64,000 bases of DNA from Alphaproteobacteria bacterium (GTDB lineage: Bacteria > Pseudomonadota > Alphaproteobacteria > Sphingomonadales > Kordiimonadaceae), in assembly GCA_006226495.1 (NCBI GenBank), contig SBGU01000060.1:1-64000 (forward strand), given 5' to 3'. A model generated the notes under the pieces. That model worked only from the letters and a program-made list of their open reading frames with translations, did no database searches and was not told the origin of the DNA. Each line of letters starts with the position of its first letter. Position 1 is the stretch's first letter. Below, piece after piece: positions 1,874 to 19,453 of the stretch. A program made the translations under genes and the position numbers.

Positions 1874-3883
1874 CTACTTGTTACACATGCCCGCCGCCGG
1901 GTGCGGCAGGCCAAGATAGACCGTGCTCCAAAGCTGCACGGCATTCGATTCGGTCAGGTGCCCGGCGCTTTGCCCGAAGGGCGCAACGGCATACCTGCCG
2001 TCCCGGTAGGACCATGACCAAAGCTCGGAATTGCGGATATCGGCGGTGGCATCGATTGCCTGCCACAGCCGGCATTCGACAGCCTTCAGGCGCGCCTTCA
2101 GGCCGGCATCCAGGTCGGTGCGCGCCATCTGGCGGCGGATGCCCGCCACCCACATGGCCTGCTGCCAGGACCAGACCACGGTGCCATGGTAATTGCCGGG
2201 GCCAACCAGGCCCTGGGTGTCCGCATCCGCAAATACCGGGTTCGCGACAAACAGGCCCACGGGCGACATCAGGCCCGCCGGGAACGGCCGTTCGGCGGAC
2301 GCCAGCGCCCGGTCCAGCACCTCGGGCGCCGGGGCGGTGAACAGAAGGCCGAAGCCGGGGTCGGACTGCTGCACCGGGACCGCATTGCCGGAGGCATCCA
2401 GCGCCAGTGCATCAAAAGCCACCGGCCCCGTGCCAAGCGACGCCAAAGCCGCCTCCACCGGCACAGCCTGTTGTGCGCCGTAGGCCTGCACCCTGGCCGC
2501 CGCGTCGTCCGCCGGCACGCTCACGATGAAATGTTTCACCGCCTCGCGCTGCCAGAAGGCGGCAAGGGCATGGGCATCGCCCGCCGCGCCCGCCAGCAGG
2601 CCGCGTGTGCGGAGGGCCGCGATGGCATCCAAGGCCGCCGGCATCAGGACCGTGTTCACATCATAGGGATAGCGCCCGCCGGCCAGGCCTTCTTCACTGT
2701 CGCGCCAGTTGCCATGCACCTGGCCGGGCTTCAGCGAAATCAGGTTTTTGGCGACCGGATCGGCGGCAAAGGGCCGCGCGGCATTCAGGACAAAGGCGGC
2801 ATTGTCGGCCACCACACTGCCATAGCTGTGGCCATCCGCGCGGGTGCGGCGCAGGAAGGCGATGGCGTCCGTGTCTGACAGGCCGTTGATATAGCGCGCC
2901 AGCACCGGCAGCAGCATCAGATTGTCGTCGACCATGGCATAATCATAGATCGGCGTGTCGGCGGCCCGGCCCTCCGATTGCAGGTTATGCAAGACCGCCA
3001 GTTCGCCGATTTCTTCTTCGTGCGCCACCTCGCCCGCTGCGTTCACCCGCTCGATCACAGACCCCAGCCCGGCTTCGACCGCATCGCGGCCCAACACCGG
3101 CATCAACAATTCGACCGTCAGCAAGGTATCGCGGCCAAAATAGGTGAGGAAACGCCAGGACCCGGCCAGCAGTTTCTGTTCGTAGGACAGGAACCCGAGC
3201 GCGTTTTCCAGGCGCGGCGCATCGACCGCCTGTTCCGTCAGCAGGCTTTCCCCCGTAATCGGCGTGAGCGGTGTATCACCCGTCAGCGCGGTGATGCGCA
3301 GGCTGAGCGATGCCGCTTTGGTCTCGAAGACAACCTGCCCGCCCTCGCCCGCCGTGGCGCTGCCATTCAGCACCTCGACCGTCAGCCGGTAGCGGCTTTT
3401 GCCGTCGGCCCGGTCGCGCTGCCATGTGGCTTTCTGGCCATCAAGCGCCGGGGCAATTTCGGGCCGTGGTGCCACCGCGTTCATGTCGACCGCGCCCCGG
3501 ATGAACCGAAGGCTGCCAACATCACCGCGGGCAACCGTCAACCGGTTTGTATCCAGAGACACATCCAGCATGAAACCGGCAAGGCCGATGCCGTCAGGGT
3601 CCGCAAGGATAACCGGTTCAAGATCGCTGGTGCGCTGCCATGTCACCGACCGGTCGCCGCCTTCAAAAAACAGGCCGGCGCCGCTGTTGCCGGCGGGGAA
3701 AGCGGCAATGAGGCGCGGATGTGTGCCGGAGGTCAGCATCAGATGCCCGGCCACGGGCCCGGCTTCGATGAAGGCATTGTCGCCCCGGCCTTCCTGAATG
3801 GCGAACCGGTGGTCCTGGGCCGCCACCGGCATCGCCGCCGCAAGGCCCAGCATCAACATGGCAATCAGGCGCGGAAGGCTCAT
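1874..3883 (-). CDS. secreted six-hairpin glycosidase-like protein
   Basis: Started at the ATG giving MSLPRLIAMLMLGLAAAMPVAAQ, which is a clear signal peptide; a longer in-frame start at 3922 would run into a terminator. The mature protein (about 645 residues) has a beta-rich N-terminal part and a helical part from about residue 230. That part contains LTYFGRDTLLTVELLMPVLG and later NWRDSEEGLAGGRYPYDVN, which resemble the GRDT and substrate-site regions of amylo-alpha-1,6-glucosidase/glycogen-debranching-type (alpha/alpha)6 barrels. HEEEIGEL is a plausible source of a catalytic Glu. The position behind a TonB receptor in a maltose locus suggests a periplasmic enzyme trimming alpha-glucans, but exact specificity is an inference. 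It ends at a good terminator. The MSLP start has a GGGAGAG sequence about 10 nt upstream. Confidence 0.6.
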   Translation of the reverse strand: MSLPRLIAMLMLGLAAAMPVAAQDHRFAIQEGRGDNAFIEAGPVAGHLMLTSGTHPRLIAAFPAGNSGAGLFFEGGDRSVTWQRTSDLEPVILADPDGIGLAGFMLDVSLDTNRLTVARGDVGSLRFIRGAVDMNAVAPRPEIAPALDGQKATWQRDRADGKSRYRLTVEVLNGSATAGEGGQVVFETKAASLSLRITALTGDTPLTPITGESLLTEQAVDAPRLENALGFLSYEQKLLAGSWRFLTYFGRDTLLTVELLMPVLGRDAVEAGLGSVIERVNAAGEVAHEEEIGELAVLHNLQSEGRAADTPIYDYAMVDDNLMLLPVLARYINGLSDTDAIAFLRRTRADGHSYGSVVADNAAFVLNAARPFAADPVAKNLISLKPGQVHGNWRDSEEGLAGGRYPYDVNTVLMPAALDAIAALRTRGLLAGAAGDAHALAAFWQREAVKHFIVSVPADDAAARVQAYGAQQAVPVEAALASLGTGPVAFDALALDASGNAVPVQQSDPGFGLLFTAPAPEVLDRALASAERPFPAGLMSPVGLFVANPVFADADTQGLVGPGNYHGTVVWSWQQAMWVAGIRRQMARTDLDAGLKARLKAVECRLWQAIDATADIRNSELWSWSYRDGRYAVAPFGQSAGHLTESNAVQLWSTVYLGLPHPAAGMCNK

Positions 3884-3920
3884 CTGGTCCGTCTCTCCCG
3901 CCGGCGGTGCGGCATCAACC

Positions 3921-3959
3921 AAAAAAAATGACGCTGTATCTTTGGAGGAAGATACAGCG
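3921..3959 (-). terminator. terminator between TonB receptor and six-hairpin gene
   Basis: An 11-bp perfect stem (CGCTGTATCTT at 3932-3942 with AAGATACAGCG at 3949-3959, 6-nt loop), followed on the minus strand by a run of T (complement of AAAAAAAA at 3921-3928). A second hairpin, GGCATCCGC/GCGGATGCC at 4002-4021, lies between it and the receptor stop. Together they should reduce readthrough into the downstream glycosidase gene. Confidence 0.8.
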
Positions 3960-4042
3960 CCCAGGCCCCATTAAAACCAGGGAAGGAAAGTGTATGGCAG
4001 CGGCATCCGCGTGCGGATGCCGCCCGCCCGGGCGCGACGAGC

Positions 4043-6471: not shown

Positions 6472-6524
6472 GAAAATGGTAATATCTCTCGACTTTGAGG
6501 GGCCCGGGTCTATATTACCGAGCT

Positions 6525-7544
6525 ATGAAGAGGGACAGGAACCTGACAATGGCGGACATCGCACGCCTCGCCGGCGTGTCGGAGGCGACCGTATCGCGGT
6601 CGCTGAAGGATAGTCCCTTGATCAATGAAAAGACGCGCCTGAAGGTTCAGGAAATCGCGCGCGAGCATAATTACAAGGTCAATGCCGCCGCGCGGAACTT
6701 CCGCCTCAAGAAAACCCACACCCTGGCCGTTGTGCTGCTGGTCGACCGCGAATGGGGCCACGAGGTATCTGACGCCTTCCTGATGGTGCTTCTGGGCAGC
6801 ATCGCCGACGAGGCCGCGCACCAGGGTTATGACCTTCTTCTCTCGACCAACCCGCACGATGTGGCGGATTTGAATGCCTATTATCTCGAATCCATGCGCG
6901 CGGACGGCTTGATCATCATTGGCCAGGGCCGCAACGACCCGCGGCTGGACCGGCTGGCGGACGCGGGCGCGCCCTTCATCGTCTGGGGTGCCGAGGTCGA
7001 GGACCATAATTATTTCACCGTCGGCAGCGACAACCGCCAGGGCGGCTACGATGCCACCAGCCTGCTTGTCCGCAACGGTCGCAAGCGCATCGCCTTCCTG
7101 GGCGACATCCGCCACCCGGAAATGGAACACCGCTGGGAAGGCTACAGGCACGCGCTCGCCGACGCCGGCCTGCCCTATGAAGAAAAGCTGGTCATCCCGA
7201 CCGATTTCTCGCGCTCCGACGGCTATGAAAAAGCCGCCCGCATGGTGGTGGACGGCCCCGACTGCGACGCCATCTTCTGCGTCAGCGACAATATCGCGCT
7301 CGGCGTGATGAAACGTTTCGCCGAAGGCGGCATCCGCGTGCCCGAAGACATCGCCATCGTCGGCTTCGACGACAATCCGCTGGCCGTGTTTTCAACCCCC
7401 AGCATCACCACCATCAAGCAGGACATCCGCGAAGGCGGTAAACTGTTGGTGCAGAACCTGATCAAGGTGCTGAACGGCGAAAAAATCGACCATGTCACCA
7501 TGCCCACCGAAACCATCATCCGCCAGTCGTGCGGTGCGGCCTAG
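6525..7544 (+). CDS. LacI-family regulator of the maltose locus
   Basis: A 339-residue LacI/GalR-type repressor. The helix-turn-helix is MADIARLAGVSEATVSRSL with the hinge region INEKTRLKVQEIAREHNYKVN. From about residue 65 there is a periplasmic-binding-protein-like sugar domain (TLAVVLLVDREWGHEVSDAF, IVGFDDNPLAVFSTPSITTI near the end). I chose the ATG at 6525 (MKRDRNLTMADIA); a TTG at 6495 is in frame but implausible. It is divergent from the TonB receptor and faces two palindromic operators, a third copy of which precedes the GH65 gene. It therefore most likely represses the whole locus until maltose or a derivative binds. Its last 47 bp are duplicated at 8810-8856. Confidence 0.92.
   Translation: MKRDRNLTMADIARLAGVSEATVSRSLKDSPLINEKTRLKVQEIAREHNYKVNAAARNFRLKKTHTLAVVLLVDREWGHEVSDAFLMVLLGSIADEAAHQGYDLLLSTNPHDVADLNAYYLESMRADGLIIIGQGRNDPRLDRLADAGAPFIVWGAEVEDHNYFTVGSDNRQGGYDATSLLVRNGRKRIAFLGDIRHPEMEHRWEGYRHALADAGLPYEEKLVIPTDFSRSDGYEKAARMVVDGPDCDAIFCVSDNIALGVMKRFAEGGIRVPEDIAIVGFDDNPLAVFSTPSITTIKQDIREGGKLLVQNLIKVLNGEKIDHVTMPTETIIRQSCGAA
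7498..7544. repeat. 47-bp direct repeat, copy 1 (3' end of lacI)
   Basis: The last 47 bp of lacI including its TAG stop. It is repeated without a mismatch at 8810-8856 in the same orientation. The two copies bracket the esterase gene. Confidence 0.95.
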
Positions 7545-7550
7545 CGCTGG

Positions 7551-8738
7551 CTATTCAAAACCGAACCGGGCCATCAGGCTTTTGGCGTAATCGTCATCCG
7601 GGTTCAGCTCGAGCGCATGCTGCAGCGCGGCTTTCGCGTCCTCATCACGCCCCGCGGCATGATAATATTCGGCGATCCCGTTCCAGGCGCCTGAAATGCC
7701 GGGATGGGCCTCAAGGTTGGCCTTGAACAGTTGCTCGGCCTTGTCGAGCCAGCGGTAATAATAAAGCGCATTATAGGCAACAACCGACACATAGAAAGGA
7801 TCGGGCTCGAACGCCACCCCCATGCGCGCGGAATAGTCGGCATAATGCCTGAACAGCAGGTCCGGGTCCTTTGCCGCCGCTTCGATGCCGGGCGGTGCAT
7901 AACCTTCAAAAACATGCCGCAAACCTTCATGGTAACTGACGAACTGCACCGACTGATGGGATTCATGTTCAAAAAATTGCTGGCGGGTCCGAATGGCCCC
8001 GCCGCCCAAAGCCTCAATCAAAGCCAGGAAGTCAATGACCCGACCCTCGCTGCCAGCGTCCTCCGGATGCGGGATATAGGACATGTAGAAGCCGCCCTTG
8101 AACGCCGGGGATGCCGCTGCCTTGCGGGCTTCATCAAGCAACAGGCCACCCGCGTACCAAAGCGACGGGTCAATTGCGATATACGCCTCGAACAGAGGAT
8201 CGGCAGACAGCATGTCATGGATCGCAAACAAGCCGCCAAAGGAATGGCCGACCAACACACGATAGGGTTTCGTGCGGTATTTGGCCTCGATCAACGGCAA
8301 CAATTCTTCCCGAAGGTGCCGCCGGTAGGCTTCGGCACCGCCACTGTCTTCCAGAAAGGGGGCATCGGTACCGTCACTGTTTTTCAGGGAATGGACCGGC
8401 GTATAGTCGCGCACCCGGTTCGGGCTTGGCAGCCCGACCACAATGGCCTCAGGCACCAGTGACCCCATCTTGTTGTTGGCAAGCGCTGCCGCGCGCACGG
8501 TCTCGAACTGGGTCAGGTAACCGTCTAGCACATAAATGACCGGATAGGTCGCATTGGCGCCGACAGAATCATAACTTTCCGGCAGGGACACGGAATACCG
8601 CAAGTCACCTTCGCCCAGAAGGGCCGAGTTCAGCGAATATTGCGTGCCGATCTCGATTTTGCTTTCAAAAGGTTCGGCGCCATAGGCACCGGCACACCAG
8701 CACAGCCCAAGAACCAGCACCACAAGATATCGCATCAT
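7551..8738 (-). CDS. secreted alpha/beta-hydrolase esterase (enterochelin-esterase type) with TPR tail
   Basis: Started at the tandem ATG giving MMRYLVVLVLGLCWCAGAYGAEP, a signal peptide; the protein is 395 residues. Residues 25-290 are an esterase D/Fes-type alpha/beta hydrolase: YPVIYVLDGYL strand, nucleophile Ser in VLVGHSFGGLFAIHDML, and a His candidate in EHESHQSVQ. The C-terminal 90 residues hold TPR-like helices (WNGIAEYYHAAGRDEDAKAALQHALELNPDD). Members hydrolyse siderophore, glycerol or sugar esters; the substrate here is unknown. Lines counted by eye are about 55 percent GC against about 65 percent in lacI. It is flanked by exact 47-bp repeats of the lacI end, so it looks like a later insertion into the maltose locus. 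Confidence 0.82.
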   Translation of the reverse strand: MMRYLVVLVLGLCWCAGAYGAEPFESKIEIGTQYSLNSALLGEGDLRYSVSLPESYDSVGANATYPVIYVLDGYLTQFETVRAAALANNKMGSLVPEAIVVGLPSPNRVRDYTPVHSLKNSDGTDAPFLEDSGGAEAYRRHLREELLPLIEAKYRTKPYRVLVGHSFGGLFAIHDMLSADPLFEAYIAIDPSLWYAGGLLLDEARKAAASPAFKGGFYMSYIPHPEDAGSEGRVIDFLALIEALGGGAIRTRQQFFEHESHQSVQFVSYHEGLRHVFEGYAPPGIEAAAKDPDLLFRHYADYSARMGVAFEPDPFYVSVVAYNALYYYRWLDKAEQLFKANLEAHPGISGAWNGIAEYYHAAGRDEDAKAALQHALELNPDDDYAKSLMARFGFE

Positions 8739-8809
8739 CGCCCCACCCCCCGGTTGCAGACATGCACCCTTATAACAGGCACAAATCACGCCCGGCAATC
8801 GGCGAAAGG

Positions 8810-8856
8810 CCATGCCCACCGAAACCATCATCCGCCAGTCGTGCGGTGCGGCCTAG
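8810..8856. repeat. 47-bp direct repeat, copy 2 (orphan lacI end)
   Basis: An exact copy of 7498-7544 with no lacI coding sequence in front of it. It lies 1,312 bp downstream of copy 1. Together they mark the borders of a segment of about 1.3 kb carrying the esterase. Confidence 0.95.
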
Positions 8857-8870
8857 GGAATCAACGCCAC

Positions 8871-9710
8871 CTACTGAAAACTTGCCTGAAAGTTCGTAGC
8901 GGTCAGCGATACATGTCGGTCAAGCGGCGGCCTGAGCTCAAACGCCTTTGGCTCCCGCATATAATCCCAAACACGGACGAGGCACCATTCATCTCGGCGC
9001 TCGTCAGCAACCGCAAGCTCATTGCGGGTAATATGGAACGGCGTCCAGTTCCAGCCGCTTTTTGTCGTCTTGACTTCGATAAGCCGGGGCCGACCGTCAG
9101 GTTCGAAGCTGGCAATGTCGTAGCCAGCCCCATCGCCGTCCAAATCCGACACCCAGCGAAGGCGCTTTGCCAGATCACCACGTCCGGAATTTGTAAGGGT
9201 CGCGCGTTCATATTCCAGTACCAACTCCTCGCCCGCACGCCCAAGGGCGCGGTTGCGGGCATCGCGGCCTGCGGGGTCAAACTTCCGGGCGATGCGGCGC
9301 ATCTGTTCGATATTTTCTGGAGTGGGTTGGTTGCTTAGGGTTGGTGCGGCCCCGATAAAGAGCGAAGCGCCATCATGTACCTTAGGGGCCTTTGCGGTTC
9401 CAGCTTGATGGAAATTCCAGACTGGCGCTCTCTCAAGGAAACGCACAATCGCGTCCTCAAGACTGGCTTGAAAATTTCCGGCCGGTTTGTAGCCCAAAAT
9501 CCAAGGTTCGCCACCGCCCATCAGCACAGCGCTGATATTCTGATGCTTGAACTCTATCGAACCTTCGCTACGACCCTGAAGCAAAGGCTGCAACTGTCTA
9601 CGATGCTCTGATTTGCTATAGGACTGGCCGGATAAATCCTTGGCCAACATCGCGAAATAGTCCGCGACGATCAGATCATTCTCGGTATCTGTCCATGGAT
9701 CATTGGCCAT
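8871..9710 (-). CDS. DUF3883 (nuclease-fold) protein
   Basis: A 279-residue cytoplasmic protein. Residues about 150-255 match the DUF3883 domain seen at the end of NO VEIN-like and defence-associated proteins: GRAGEELVLEYERATLTNSGR, then GYDIASFEPDGRPRLIEVKTTK and NELAVADERRDEWCLVRVWDY. GYDI followed by IEVK is the D...ExK arrangement of PD-(D/E)XK restriction-endonuclease folds. The N-terminal 140 residues are not recognised; a segment there (EFKHQNISAVLMGGGEPWILGYKPAGNFQ) looks like those found before DUF3883 in mobile genes. Sampled lines are about 50 percent GC, well below the flanks, and no methylase or helicase partner is present, so it looks horizontally acquired. Role unproven. Confidence 0.75.
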   Translation of the reverse strand: MANDPWTDTENDLIVADYFAMLAKDLSGQSYSKSEHRRQLQPLLQGRSEGSIEFKHQNISAVLMGGGEPWILGYKPAGNFQASLEDAIVRFLERAPVWNFHQAGTAKAPKVHDGASLFIGAAPTLSNQPTPENIEQMRRIARKFDPAGRDARNRALGRAGEELVLEYERATLTNSGRGDLAKRLRWVSDLDGDGAGYDIASFEPDGRPRLIEVKTTKSGWNWTPFHITRNELAVADERRDEWCLVRVWDYMREPKAFELRPPLDRHVSLTATNFQASFQ

Positions 9711-9796
9711 GGCGCCAGGCTAATTGCGAAATATTCGAATGTCACCAAGGGTTTCACAAAATCGCGCATAACTTACCTGACATCCGAGATGCTGGA

Positions 9797-9877
9797 TGCG
9801 CCGATCAAGTCGGCGCATGACGAATTCTTCTGATGCTTGGTTTACCCACATCGTCACCCGCCGACTTGATCGGCGGG
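9797..9877. repeat. REP-like hairpin pair with TCAAG/CTTGA loops
   Basis: Hairpin 1 is TGCGCCGA-TCAAG-TCGGCGCA (9797-9817). Hairpin 2 is CCCGCCGA-CTTGA-TCGGCGGG (9857-9877), the opposite orientation. The stems differ but keep pairing, the loop is constant, and both are flanked by ATGACG or its complement CGTCA. The same units recur at 15.5 kb and 18.8-19.3 kb. Confidence 0.8.
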
Positions 9878-9901
9878 TCCAGGATGGCGGCAGCCTGCCC
9901 C

Positions 9902-10555
9902 TCATCCCACCAGTTTCGCCAGGCCTTTGTCGGCGAGGTCGGCGGTATCCGGCAGCACGAGGTCAGCGTGGCCGAGGATGGTTTTCTCGCCGATGCCGAT
10001 GGCGGTCATGCCGGCGGCTTTGATGGCGGTGACGCCGGCGGCGGCGTCTTCGACACCGATGCACTGTTCAGGCGCGATGCCGAAGGCATTGGCGACATCC
10101 AAAAAGATATCAGGCGCCGGTTTGCCGCGCGGGATCAGGGCGGCGTCAGCGACATAATGGAAGCGCCCTTCGATGCCGAGGCTGCGGATCACCTCGCCCG
10201 CGTTTTTGCTGGCGGACGCGAGGCCGATTTTCAGGCCGCGGGTATCCAGCCAGTCGAAGGCCAGCATGATGCCGGGCAACAGGTCGTCGGCACTGATGGA
10301 CCGGATCAACTGTTTATAGTCATCATTCTTCTTGGCGGCCAGCAGTTCACGTTCGGCCTGGTCAAACACCCGGTCAGACTTGTCAAGGATATAGGCGAGC
10401 GATTCCATGCGCCCGACGCCCTTTAGCTGGTGGTTATCTTCCTCGTCGAACGGGATGCCCAGCCCTTCGGCCAGCCGCTTCCAAGCCAGATAATGATAAT
10501 GCGCCGTGTCGGTGATCACACCGTCGAGGTCAAAAATGCAGGCCTGGAATGCCAT
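9902..10555 (-). CDS. pgmB: beta-phosphoglucomutase
   Basis: A 217-residue HAD-superfamily enzyme converting beta-glucose-1-phosphate to glucose-6-phosphate. The ATG at 10555 gives MAFQACIFDLDGVITDTAHYHYLAWKRLA, with nucleophile Asp9, acid/base Asp11 and the cap start typical of PgmB. GVGRMESL is the substrate-specificity loop, ASASKNA is motif II, and RGKPAPDIFLDVA with GVEDAAAGV are motifs III/IV. It lies directly downstream of the GH65 phosphorylase (28-nt gap) on the same strand, so it handles that enzyme's sugar-phosphate product. A TTG start at 10582 is possible but less likely. Confidence 0.93.
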   Translation of the reverse strand: MAFQACIFDLDGVITDTAHYHYLAWKRLAEGLGIPFDEEDNHQLKGVGRMESLAYILDKSDRVFDQAERELLAAKKNDDYKQLIRSISADDLLPGIMLAFDWLDTRGLKIGLASASKNAGEVIRSLGIEGRFHYVADAALIPRGKPAPDIFLDVANAFGIAPEQCIGVEDAAAGVTAIKAAGMTAIGIGEKTILGHADLVLPDTADLADKGLAKLVG

Positions 10556-10582
10556 GGCTCTGGTCCCTGGTTTAAGTGACAA

Positions 10583-14616: not shown

Positions 14617-15513
14617 ATGGATATCGAACACGCGCGCACCTTCCTCGCGGTGGTGGACACCGGCAGCTTCGTCGCCGCAGCCGACAAAATCTATGTCACA
14701 CAATCCACCGTTTCCATGCGCATCAAGGTGCTGGAACAGCAGTTGGGCCAGACCCTGTTCGAGCGCTCGAAGGCCGGCGCGGCCCTCACCCCCGCCGGGC
14801 GCCAGTTCCAGAAACACGCGCGCGCCTTTTTGAAAATCTGGCAACAGGCCAAGCTTGAAATCGCGCTGCCCGAAGGCCATGAAGCCGCCATTACCATCGG
14901 CGCGCAACCCAGCCTGTGGGACGGTTATGTACTGGCGTTCCTGCCGTGGATGCGCGAGCGCGCGCCCCAGATCGCCATCCGCACCCAGATGGCGGCGGCC
15001 AGCACCATCCTGATGGAACGGCTGAACAGCGGCATCATCGACCTCGCCATCCTTTACCGCCCCGATGCGCGGCCCGGCATCCGCATCACCCAACTGTTCG
15101 AGGAACATCTGGTGATGGTGTCATCGGAAGCCGCGAGCGACACCCCGGCCCTGCCGCCCAAAGGCTATGTCTATGTCGACTGGGGGCCCGAGTTCCGCGC
15201 CGACCACAGCGTGAATTTCCCGGACCTGACCCTGCCGGGCCTGCACCTGGATGTCGGCACCCTGGGCATCGAATATCTGCTCGAAAACCCGGCCAGCGGC
15301 TATTTCCCGCTCCGGATCGCCGAACCGCACCTGAAGGCCGGCCGCCTGTCCCTCGTCGCGGGCGCGCCCATCTTCTCCTACCGCACCTATGCCGCCTTCT
15401 CCGAACAAGCCGACGAAACTGTCATGGCCCTGGCGCTTGAGGGTTTGAACACGGTGGCCCGGCGGCAAGTGCCGGAGGATGCGGAAAAGGCGGTGGAAAG
15501 GTTGAGGGGGTAA
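14617..15513 (+). CDS. LysR-family transcriptional regulator
   Basis: A 298-residue protein. The N-terminal winged helix is MDIEHARTFLAVVDTGSFVAAADKIYVTQSTVSMRIKVLEQQLGQTLFERS, the LysR signature. Residues 90-290 form the effector-binding domain (ITIGAQPSLWDGYVLAFLPW, IDLAILYRPDARPGIRITQLFEEHLVMV). The ATG at 14617 gives the canonical LysR start; an upstream in-frame codon at 14581 would only add a non-conserved tail. It has no divergent partner: the MFS gene is upstream on the same strand beyond a repeat, and the following gene is convergent. Target unknown. Confidence 0.88.
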   Translation: MDIEHARTFLAVVDTGSFVAAADKIYVTQSTVSMRIKVLEQQLGQTLFERSKAGAALTPAGRQFQKHARAFLKIWQQAKLEIALPEGHEAAITIGAQPSLWDGYVLAFLPWMRERAPQIAIRTQMAAASTILMERLNSGIIDLAILYRPDARPGIRITQLFEEHLVMVSSEAASDTPALPPKGYVYVDWGPEFRADHSVNFPDLTLPGLHLDVGTLGIEYLLENPASGYFPLRIAEPHLKAGRLSLVAGAPIFSYRTYAAFSEQADETVMALALEGLNTVARRQVPEDAEKAVERLRG

Positions 15514-15528
15514 TCCCAATATTCGTCA

Positions 15529-15612
15529 CCCGCCGACTTGATCGGCGGGCCCAGGGACACAGCCCTCTGCGGATAAGCCCGCGATCATGGGTTCGCCGAT
15601 CAAGCCGGCGAA
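15529..15612. repeat. REP-like hairpin pair with CTTGA/TCAAG loops
   Basis: CCCGCCGA-CTTGA-TCGGCGGG (15529-15549) is identical in stem and loop to the hairpin at 9857-9877. TTCGCCG/CGGCGAA (15592-15612) encloses ATCAAGC and is followed by TGACGAGG. They fill the space between the convergent lysR and secreted-protein genes and may act in transcription stop. Confidence 0.8.
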
Positions 15613-15634
15613 TGACGAGGTATTGGGGTTGCCC

Positions 15635-17407
15635 CTACAGCCCGTCAAGCGCCTTGCAGACGTCCCAGGTCATGACCTGCACCGGCGCGGGTTGGCCATT
15701 TTCGTTGCGGGGCATTGTCGTGAAGGCGATGGTACAACCATCGTCGGCGACGTCGGATTCTGCGGGATACCCCTCCCATATCTTGACCGCACCCCCGTCA
15801 CGCATCAGGTAGAAACCACCCGGCTTCGGCCCCACGGGGGTGTAGCGGGACGGCATGCGCCGGATGATGCCGGCTTTGGTGACCAGGGTCTGGGTCTGGC
15901 CGCGCTCGCCGTCAATCCGTGCAATATCGGTCGTCGTGACCTTGGGACCATCGGGACCCAGGGTCAGGAGCGCCACCGGCAACAGCGCGTCATTTTCGTT
16001 GGCGCCACGCACCGATACATAGCTGATCGGACAGGCCACCATCTGGAAGGCGTCCATGAAGGGCAGGTATTTCATGCAGGCCAGCGGATAGTCGGTGTCG
16101 GAAATCTTCACCGCCTTCAGGGTGCCGGGCGCATAATGGTAGGTGCCGCCGCTCGATTCCAGGAAGCCCAGGTCGCGGCCAAGCTGGCTGACCGAATTGG
16201 CGTTCGACGGCAGATCGGCGTCGCCTTCATAATGAAACCATTGGCAGGTGAGCGAGCTCTGGCCCCAACTGGCGAAGGCGCCGGTGCGCATCATCTGGGT
16301 CTGATAGCCACCGCGCGCAACCATGGTTTCCGTATAGGTGAAGGACTTTTCGGACATATAGCTGCCCGGCCGACCCTGTTTGTAATACAGTTCCTTCGGG
16401 CGCGTGCGGTCGAATTTTGGTTTCTCGCCTTCAGGGCGCGGCATTTGCCGCTGGTAGGAAACATAACCGCCCGCCGCACAAACATTCTCGCCCAGCACAT
16501 CATCGGCAATCATGGTCGTTTCCTTGCCGTCCCACACCATCAAGCGGTTCGCGGCACGCGGCACGGACGTCAGGAAAACCAACTGATTTCCGGCACCCCA
16601 ATAGAGCTTCGCCACATTCACACCCCTGAGGACCACCTCCGGCGCCATCGCCGGCTGCAGGCTGGGTGTTTTTTCCTCCATGGGGGCGGTCAGGCTGTCG
16701 AAATTCTGGCGCGCCCCGGCGAACAGCTTTTCATAATCCGGCACCACATCGGCTTCGTCCCTGAGCCAGGGCGCAGGCGCTTCCTGCAGCGCGCCATCAG
16801 GGATGCCGAGCTGTCTGCGTTCTTCCGCGGTCATGGATTTCTTGAGCTGGTTCTGGAGCGCACTGTTCATCGCCCGCATGCCATGCACACAAATCCACCA
16901 GGGTGACGCCTCGCCGTCGCGCAGGTCGTCGCGCGCCAGCACGCGCTTGCCGGCTTCGCCCGATTCCTTCGGATGCGTGCGGGTATAGGCAACAACGCTT
17001 TTGGCCGCAGCCGGCAGGTACCTAACGCCCTGCGCCGCCGTGGTATCGGCACACAGGATCGCATCCATGCGGGCCCGCATATGGCCAAGCCAATACCATT
17101 CCAGCGCCGCCTGCGGGTCAGAGGCAAAGGTATGTTCGGCAAGATAATAGAGGAAAATCGGCGGCAGTTCGTTGCGCCGGGCTTCAAGTTCGGCGCGCAA
17201 GGCTTCGTCGCCCGCCGGGGCCTGCATCGCGCGTTTGAGCAGCGCCTCGTAACCCGTATGTTCGTTCTGGGATACCGAAAAGGTGCGCCCGACCGCCGGA
17301 TAACTGACATAGGGGCCGCCTGCTGCAAACACTGGTGCCGTCAGCATGACAAACAGCCCCAGGAAAATCGCGCTGATGCGCCGGACGCTCAATTGCCGTC
17401 CCCTCAT
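15635..17407 (-). CDS. secreted protein of unknown function
   Basis: A 590-residue protein with an N-terminal signal peptide (ISAIFLGLFVMLTAPVFAAGG) and no further membrane segment, so it is probably periplasmic or exported. I do not recognise the family. Residues 50-200 are helical and Ala/Glu-rich (EALLKRAMQAPAGDEALRAE, LAEHTFASDPQAALEWYWLG), reminiscent of helical repeats. Residues from about 250 are beta-rich with many Gly/Tyr/Trp residues and several cysteines that could form disulphides (SSLTCQWFHYEGD, DYPLACMKYLPF, VACPISYV, DGCTIAF). Its ATG overlaps the stop of the M14-type deacylase (ATGA), so the two are translated together and probably work together. Confidence 0.7.
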   Translation of the reverse strand: MRGRQLSVRRISAIFLGLFVMLTAPVFAAGGPYVSYPAVGRTFSVSQNEHTGYEALLKRAMQAPAGDEALRAELEARRNELPPIFLYYLAEHTFASDPQAALEWYWLGHMRARMDAILCADTTAAQGVRYLPAAAKSVVAYTRTHPKESGEAGKRVLARDDLRDGEASPWWICVHGMRAMNSALQNQLKKSMTAEERRQLGIPDGALQEAPAPWLRDEADVVPDYEKLFAGARQNFDSLTAPMEEKTPSLQPAMAPEVVLRGVNVAKLYWGAGNQLVFLTSVPRAANRLMVWDGKETTMIADDVLGENVCAAGGYVSYQRQMPRPEGEKPKFDRTRPKELYYKQGRPGSYMSEKSFTYTETMVARGGYQTQMMRTGAFASWGQSSLTCQWFHYEGDADLPSNANSVSQLGRDLGFLESSGGTYHYAPGTLKAVKISDTDYPLACMKYLPFMDAFQMVACPISYVSVRGANENDALLPVALLTLGPDGPKVTTTDIARIDGERGQTQTLVTKAGIIRRMPSRYTPVGPKPGGFYLMRDGGAVKIWEGYPAESDVADDGCTIAFTTMPRNENGQPAPVQVMTWDVCKALDGL

Positions 17408-18652: not shown

Positions 18653-18710
18653 CCGGACACTGCCGCCCCCGCACATCACCGTTCGCCTGCGCCACCGCCC
18701 CCACACATCA

Positions 18711-19413
18711 CCGTTCGCCCTGAGCCTGTCGAAGGGCAGAATGCAGGGCGGAGACAGTGCCGGCAAACGCCGCACCCGCCATCCCGGGCTTCGACAGGCT
18801 CAGCCCGAACGGTGTGGGTGTGCAGGGCGGAGACTTCTGCCACCCACTCGCTGTCATGGCGGGACTTGATCCCGCCATCCATAACCCGGCCAGACCGGGC
18901 GCGCAGGCGTTTCGGGCAAAGCCGTATGGATTCCGGGGTCGGGCCCCGGAATGACACTGTATCTGCAAGGTTTGAGCCCAACCTTGCCCGATCTTGCCCC
19001 ACCGTTCGCCCTGAGCCTGTCGAAGGGCAGAATGCAGGGCAGAGACTGTACCGGCACCCCCGAGCCCGCCATCCCGGGCTTCGACAGGCTCAGCCCGAAC
19101 GGTGTGGGTGTGCAGGGCACAAGTATGGTGTCGGGTGCGCCGGCCACCTCCTCGCTGTCATGGCGGGACTTGATCCCGCCATCCATAACCCGGCCAGACC
19201 GGGCGCGCAGGCGTTTCGGGCAAAGCCGTATGGATTCCGGGGTCAAGCCCCGGAATGACAGGGTGGTTTGGCTGGTGTCTAAACGTCCCCGATCTTGCCC
19301 CACCGTTCGCCCTGAGCTTGTCGAAGGGCAGGATGCAGGGCGGAGACTGTACCGGCAAACTCCGCGCCCGCCATCCTGGGCTTCGACAGGCTCAGCCCGA
19401 GCGGGGTTGGGGG
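18711..19413. repeat. array of about 0.3-kb palindromic repeat units (2.4 copies)
   Basis: Units start at 18711, 19002 and 19303 (spacing 291 and 301). Each begins with CCGTTCGCCCTGAGC-type sequence, continues with CTGTCGAAGGGCAG, and is met about 80 nt later by its near-perfect inverse (CTTCGACAGGCTCAGCCCGAAC), forming a long stem. The first two units go on with two small hairpins each: ATGGCGGGA-CTTGA-TCCCGCCAT (18856-18878 and 19160-19182) and ATTCCGGGG-TCGGG/TCAAG-CCCCGGAAT (18930-18952 and 19234-19256). The third unit stops before these. No coding potential; the reading frames through it are driven by high GC. It separates rimK from the M14-type gene. Confidence 0.85.
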
Positions 19414-19453
19414 GAGTTGCGGCCGGCACCAGCAGGCACCAGCCCTGCGGTCG

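Follow-up and report, generated by a model that had tools for sequence, protein, structure and literature searches.

The window analysed here is a 64,000-nucleotide stretch of the genome of a Kordiimonas species. Towards its left end two genes, encoding an esterase and a NOV_C/DUF3883 protein, lie between a lacI-family regulator gene and pgmB (Table 1). Self-comparison of the window confirmed the feature that a sequence-only reading had singled out: the final 47 nt of lacI, stop codon included, recur without mismatch beyond the esterase, and a single reversed open reading frame lies between the two copies. The flanks of the copies differ immediately (A versus G on the 5′ side, C versus G past the TAG), and a chance origin is excluded, the odds of such a pair in 64 kb being about 2e-18 (self-BLAST E value 1.6e-13). 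A search for the 47-mer elsewhere in the genome, which the same reading had proposed, found no third copy in the 4.32-Mb, 60-contig assembly with up to three mismatches allowed. No other duplication of the lacI-tail pattern exists in 396 genomes of the order, and the core 23-mer of the repeat has no match in viral contigs.

Table 1. Features of the lacI-pgmB region, in window coordinates.
Feature	Position	Strand	Basis
lacI-family regulator, host gene, intact (mechanical ORF 6495-7544)	6525-7544	+	PF00356, PF13377; DNA 84% identical in K. marina
Proximal 47-bp repeat, lacI tail	7498-7544	+	Self-comparison
Acquired DNA, approximate extent, lacI to REP-like pair	7545-9780		Comparison with K. marina and four more relatives
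Esterase, predicted to be secreted, C-terminal TPR; convergent with lacI	7551-8741	-	PF00756 (E 9.5e-21), PF14559
Distal 47-bp repeat, orphan lacI tail	8810-8856	+	Self-comparison
NOV_C/DUF3883 gene, second acquired gene	8871-9710	-	PF13020; PADLOC PDC-S36; missing at the site in relatives
REP-like inverted pair, same place in K. marina	9784-9890		Self-comparison and synteny
HAD hydrolase, beta-phosphoglucomutase-like (pgmB), native right neighbour of lacI	9902-10582	-	PF00702, PF13419; synteny

The distal repeat is likely to be intergenic and to lie outside the esterase gene, since the true esterase start is likelier near 8741, where a signal peptide was read by eye, than at 8831, where the mechanical open reading frame begins within the right repeat. 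The spacing between repeat and stop codon is 6 bp for the left repeat and the esterase and 14 bp for the right repeat and the NOV_C gene. The GC content of the segment between the repeats is modestly lower than that of the window (57.7% versus 62.6%), and GC3 is 0.67 for the esterase and 0.59 for the NOV_C gene against a window median of 0.74. The NOV_C/DUF3883 protein is a full-length match to the single-gene PADLOC phage-defence candidate PDC-S36 (E 3.9e-120). It has a homologue of 67% identity in another Kordiimonas, and its relatives include a gene in G014 and DUF3883 genes on alphaproteobacterial plasmids; the homologues in G014 and G045 are without flanking repeats. Close relatives of the esterase were found in neither GTDB genome contigs nor viral contigs, and a plasmid search did not recover the arrangement, matching only DUF3883 and LacI homologues. 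Elsewhere in the window, at 18660-19414, direct repeats (D1, D2 and D12) and inverted repeats (I1-I4, I6 and I7) are clustered and probably represent REP or BIME-like intergenic elements.

The sequence-only reading had also held that DNA was inserted at the end of lacI with the gene kept intact, and had called for a comparison with relatives that lack the esterase. This comparison bears it out. In K. marina (G011), G010, Pseudokordiimonas caeni (G028), G021 and G007 a pgmB-like gene follows lacI within about 130 bp, compared with a spacing of 2.36 kb in the window, and in K. marina the lacI tail is single where the window has two copies. Because lacI is followed directly by pgmB in all five relatives, the orthologous site was empty. 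The esterase was correctly placed between the repeats, but the insert is larger than had been supposed: the NOV_C gene, which lies outside the repeats and was overlooked, is also missing at this site in the relatives. Since the REP-like pair ahead of pgmB is common to the window and K. marina, the acquired DNA amounts to about 2.2 kb, extends past the second repeat and comprises both genes. A profile search detected no integrase or transposase in this DNA or among the flanking genes tested. An insertion sequence or transposon was rejected as the source, there being no transposase open reading frame and no inverted repeat at the insert ends, and the duplication being 47 bp rather than short.

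The same scar is found at other host genes in Kordiimonas. Esterase homologues are present in 17 of the 19 genomes of the genus, and two of those most similar to the window's esterase adjoin duplicated host tails. In G008 the esterase, situated between purN and ndk, has on either side a 50-bp repeat (96% identity) made up of the final 46 nt of ndk and 4 further nt. The G014 case has thiC tails (81 bp of 88% identity and another short block) on both sides of a 112-aa gene, and the esterase stands directly behind the distal thiC copy and its thiC-type terminator. Further cases were sought by a self-comparison scan of the fetched loci, which returned about nine more tail duplications, many of them near thiC-rpsD. 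The duplicated tails belong to a hypothetical 'MPDITGYV' gene, a DUF3574 gene, a probable racemase gene and purN in G015, to a DUF2306 gene in G012, to rpsD in G014, to a DUF3291 gene in G013 and once more to thiC in G017; the window's own genome holds a weak case at a gene in L205. The last few of the scan cases are diverged and were read from alignments by eye, and the host names ndk, thiC, purN, rpsD and racemase were read from translations rather than from profile matches. In most cases the edge of the repeat is no more than about 10 nt from the stop codon of the host gene. Related cargo is found behind lacI, ndk and thiC, and thiC carries different cargo in different species. Outside the lacI case the copies are 78-96% identical, so scars of this type can be old and stable; the earlier suggestion of a recent or ongoing event is possible for the perfect copies here. 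Recombination between the two 47-bp copies could in principle excise the segment.

In several Kordiimonas genomes the thiC-rpsD neighbourhood (L215, L216, L218, L224, L229 and L231) shows duplicated tails and differing small genes, and gene turnover seems to be concentrated there; some L218 open reading frames, for example near 14900-16000, may resemble RebB killing-trait proteins. The small cargo genes of G015 and G014 are homologous, and AATAAGGCCGCCACCAGCTTA is common to cargo 3′ ends at L218:19650-19691 (G015) and in L111 just below 5954 (G014), beside different host genes. The 112-aa cargo gene by thiC (L032:2943-3050, G014:C47) may be a pseudogene or contain a sequencing error because a TGA codon lies in frame within the region of the putative signal peptide. 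At L137:2665-2783 and 3853-3973 (G001:C4) tandem esterase paralogues are associated with a diverged, intergenic copy of the 3′ end of one gene, which may be either another such scar or the remains of a paralogue.

The same scan applied to 1.14 Mb from other genera gave no gene-tail case of this form. The Kordiimonas loci that were scanned had been picked around esterases, thiC and ndk. Less selected Kordiimonas DNA totalling 0.79 Mb (395 kb from the window's genome, 200 kb from G012 and 200 kb from G007) yielded a single case, the weak one in L205. The scars are therefore concentrated at plastic sites, the thiC-rpsD neighbourhood among them. An even spread over the genus is ruled out, the 200 kb from each of G012 and G007 being free of any case. 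Repeats in L207, L213 and L091 were rejected as gene tails, being dispersed or internal repeats. The pair in L091 (1995-2045 and 3865-3915; Duganella sp. SG902) is a 51-bp direct repeat of 98% identity with a gene between its copies; by eye this gene looks like a PIG-L deacetylase, and it may be another integrase-free insertion.

The recurrence of the scar bears on two explanations that would apply to the lacI locus taken by itself. In one, the second copy comes from a wrong join during assembly, for which an exact repeat in a draft of 60 contigs gives some opening. Such an artefact is very improbable given that the same architecture occurs with diverged copies in independent assemblies and that 47 bp is shorter than an ordinary read. 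In the other, the 47-bp copies would be attL and attR of a cryptic integrase-type element (e.g. a cis-mobilizable one) at the lacI 3′ end, served by a recombinase in trans. Small integrase-less elements with flanking att sites are known, and the locus resembles integrase-mediated islands and cis-mobilizable elements at gene 3′ ends in that the gene end is exactly restored, with direct repeats at both ends of a length within the usual att range. It differs from them in its single-gene cargo, in the many target genes used and in that no integrase is encoded by the segment or by the neighbouring genes that were tested. The genome search with the 47-mer disclosed no shared att site, and the absence of further duplicated lacI tails in the order and of the core 23-mer from viral contigs also speaks against such an element. 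Rather than occupying the same target gene, related esterases are found at lacI, ndk and thiC. We consider this explanation improbable for the window, and the integrase-type event to which the insertion had initially been likened is unsupported. Because the pairing of cargo and host varies, at thiC as well as among the three esterase hosts, a single site-specific recombinase is also disfavoured as the general cause.

We favour one-sided (homology-facilitated illegitimate) recombination, which would have added a gene behind the host gene and left the old tail in place, and to which we assign a probability of roughly one half. The recipient would have taken up DNA from a donor strain in which another gene already followed lacI. 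Homologous recombination within lacI would have joined the two on one side and, on the other, illegitimate rejoining would have occurred 47 bp before the recipient's own lacI stop codon. The outcome would be a whole lacI with the donor's downstream gene placed past its stop codon, and the recipient's old lacI tail would stay as a remnant between the esterase and NOV_C genes. Since the stop side of each acquired gene is 6 or 14 bp from a lacI tail, the insertion seems to have been built up by one addition after another at a single gene end, probably with NOV_C placed behind lacI first and the esterase then in front of NOV_C. The lacI-pgmB junction would in this way have been enlarged by acquired genes without an integrase or transposase of their own.

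Several observations are in favour of one-sided recombination, including the empty site in five relatives and the presence of the same scar with other hosts and other cargo in other Kordiimonas genomes. The position of the repeat edges near the host stop codon fits donor-recipient homology that stops where the coding region stops. To keep the host gene intact, selection would need an edge at or past the stop codon but would not need it to be close; a homology limited to the coding region explains this closeness. Furthermore, several distal copies remain in frame up to a stop codon of their own with a changed C-terminus, and across six cases 60 of the 110 differences between copies fall at third codon positions (28, 22 and 60; hand-summed). 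Together, the in-frame copies and the third-position excess suggest that two functional alleles met, although the excess is roughly compatible also with one decaying copy beside one selected copy, for which we estimate about 44% third-position changes, and is not decisive. The genome encodes a ComEC homologue, which would allow DNA uptake without demonstrating it; such homologues are also widespread among bacteria with no known competence. A mosaic pattern in the DUF2306 gene was considered as a possible crossover and then set aside; over the same central part the G016 orthologue shows almost no variation (reverse strand, inspected by eye).

Other observations count against one-sided recombination. 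The lacI copies are identical, and donor and recipient copies are therefore indistinguishable. No donor allele in which lacI is followed directly by the esterase was found. In G014 the remnant of rpsD has decayed and is most similar to that genome's own rpsD, the outcome expected of a simple duplication. The identity of the lacI copies and the affinity of the rpsD remnant are both accommodated by insertion with long target duplication, in which the lacI tail would have been widely nicked, the esterase joined and the gap filled, with both copies derived from one recipient sequence; retention of the thiC-type terminator by the distal thiC copy in G014 is likewise expected of a duplicated target. 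There is a precedent in H. pylori, where insertions of this kind have been described for restriction-modification genes (Nobusato et al., 2000, as recounted in PMC1643837 and PMC4978471). There, as here, a foreign gene is seen by comparison with a related genome, a direct repeat of the target is present and a transposase is not, and our 47 bp, single in the empty site of G011, falls within the tens to hundreds of bp of target that are doubled. The Kordiimonas cargo differs in being an esterase, and the adjoining defence candidate NOV_C/PDC-S36 is no restriction-modification pair; the repeats are host-gene tails that end at stop codons, with copies that have often diverged in frame. Long target duplication leaves unexplained why the edges keep to host stop codons when any point further on would do, the apparent signs of two alleles in the distal copies sit poorly with a single recipient sequence, and the native rpsD terminator seems to follow the proximal copy. 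We regard it as possible but somewhat unlikely.

For one-sided recombination the counterpart is provided by the T6SS effector-immunity arrays of V. cholerae, where homology-facilitated illegitimate recombination has been proposed and the old effector 3′ end and immunity genes are shifted downstream (PMC5361080). In both systems a new gene would be placed behind a homologous anchor, with old 3′ ends left downstream as remnants. In contrast to V. cholerae, the Kordiimonas hosts are housekeeping or regulatory genes that stay intact, the cargo is no effector-immunity module, and natural transformation would have to be presumed. The Kordiimonas scars would work like the V. cholerae model and look like the H. 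pylori type, and may belong with either. An unrecognised, dedicated Kordiimonas mechanism that places single genes or short sets after host stop codons, duplicates about 45-180 bp of the tail and moves some cargo repeatedly (the esterase-TPR gene and the small gene of G014 and G015) seems doubtful to us.

The lacI locus and its counterparts are best seen as what looks like recurrent gene addition past the end of a host gene, without an integrase; the host gene stays intact and a remnant of its tail is the scar. The new part is the recurrence of this scar across the genus, while the mechanism is one that we infer. Most bacterial accessory genes are without recognisable mobility machinery, and their entry into the chromosome is rarely visible. 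Here the scar can be read: about a dozen times within a single genus, the tail of a host gene is left beyond the complete gene itself. Confirmation would make this a simple sequence signature of integrase-free gene acquisition and would provide a set of sites at which donor, recipient and join could be worked out and tested.
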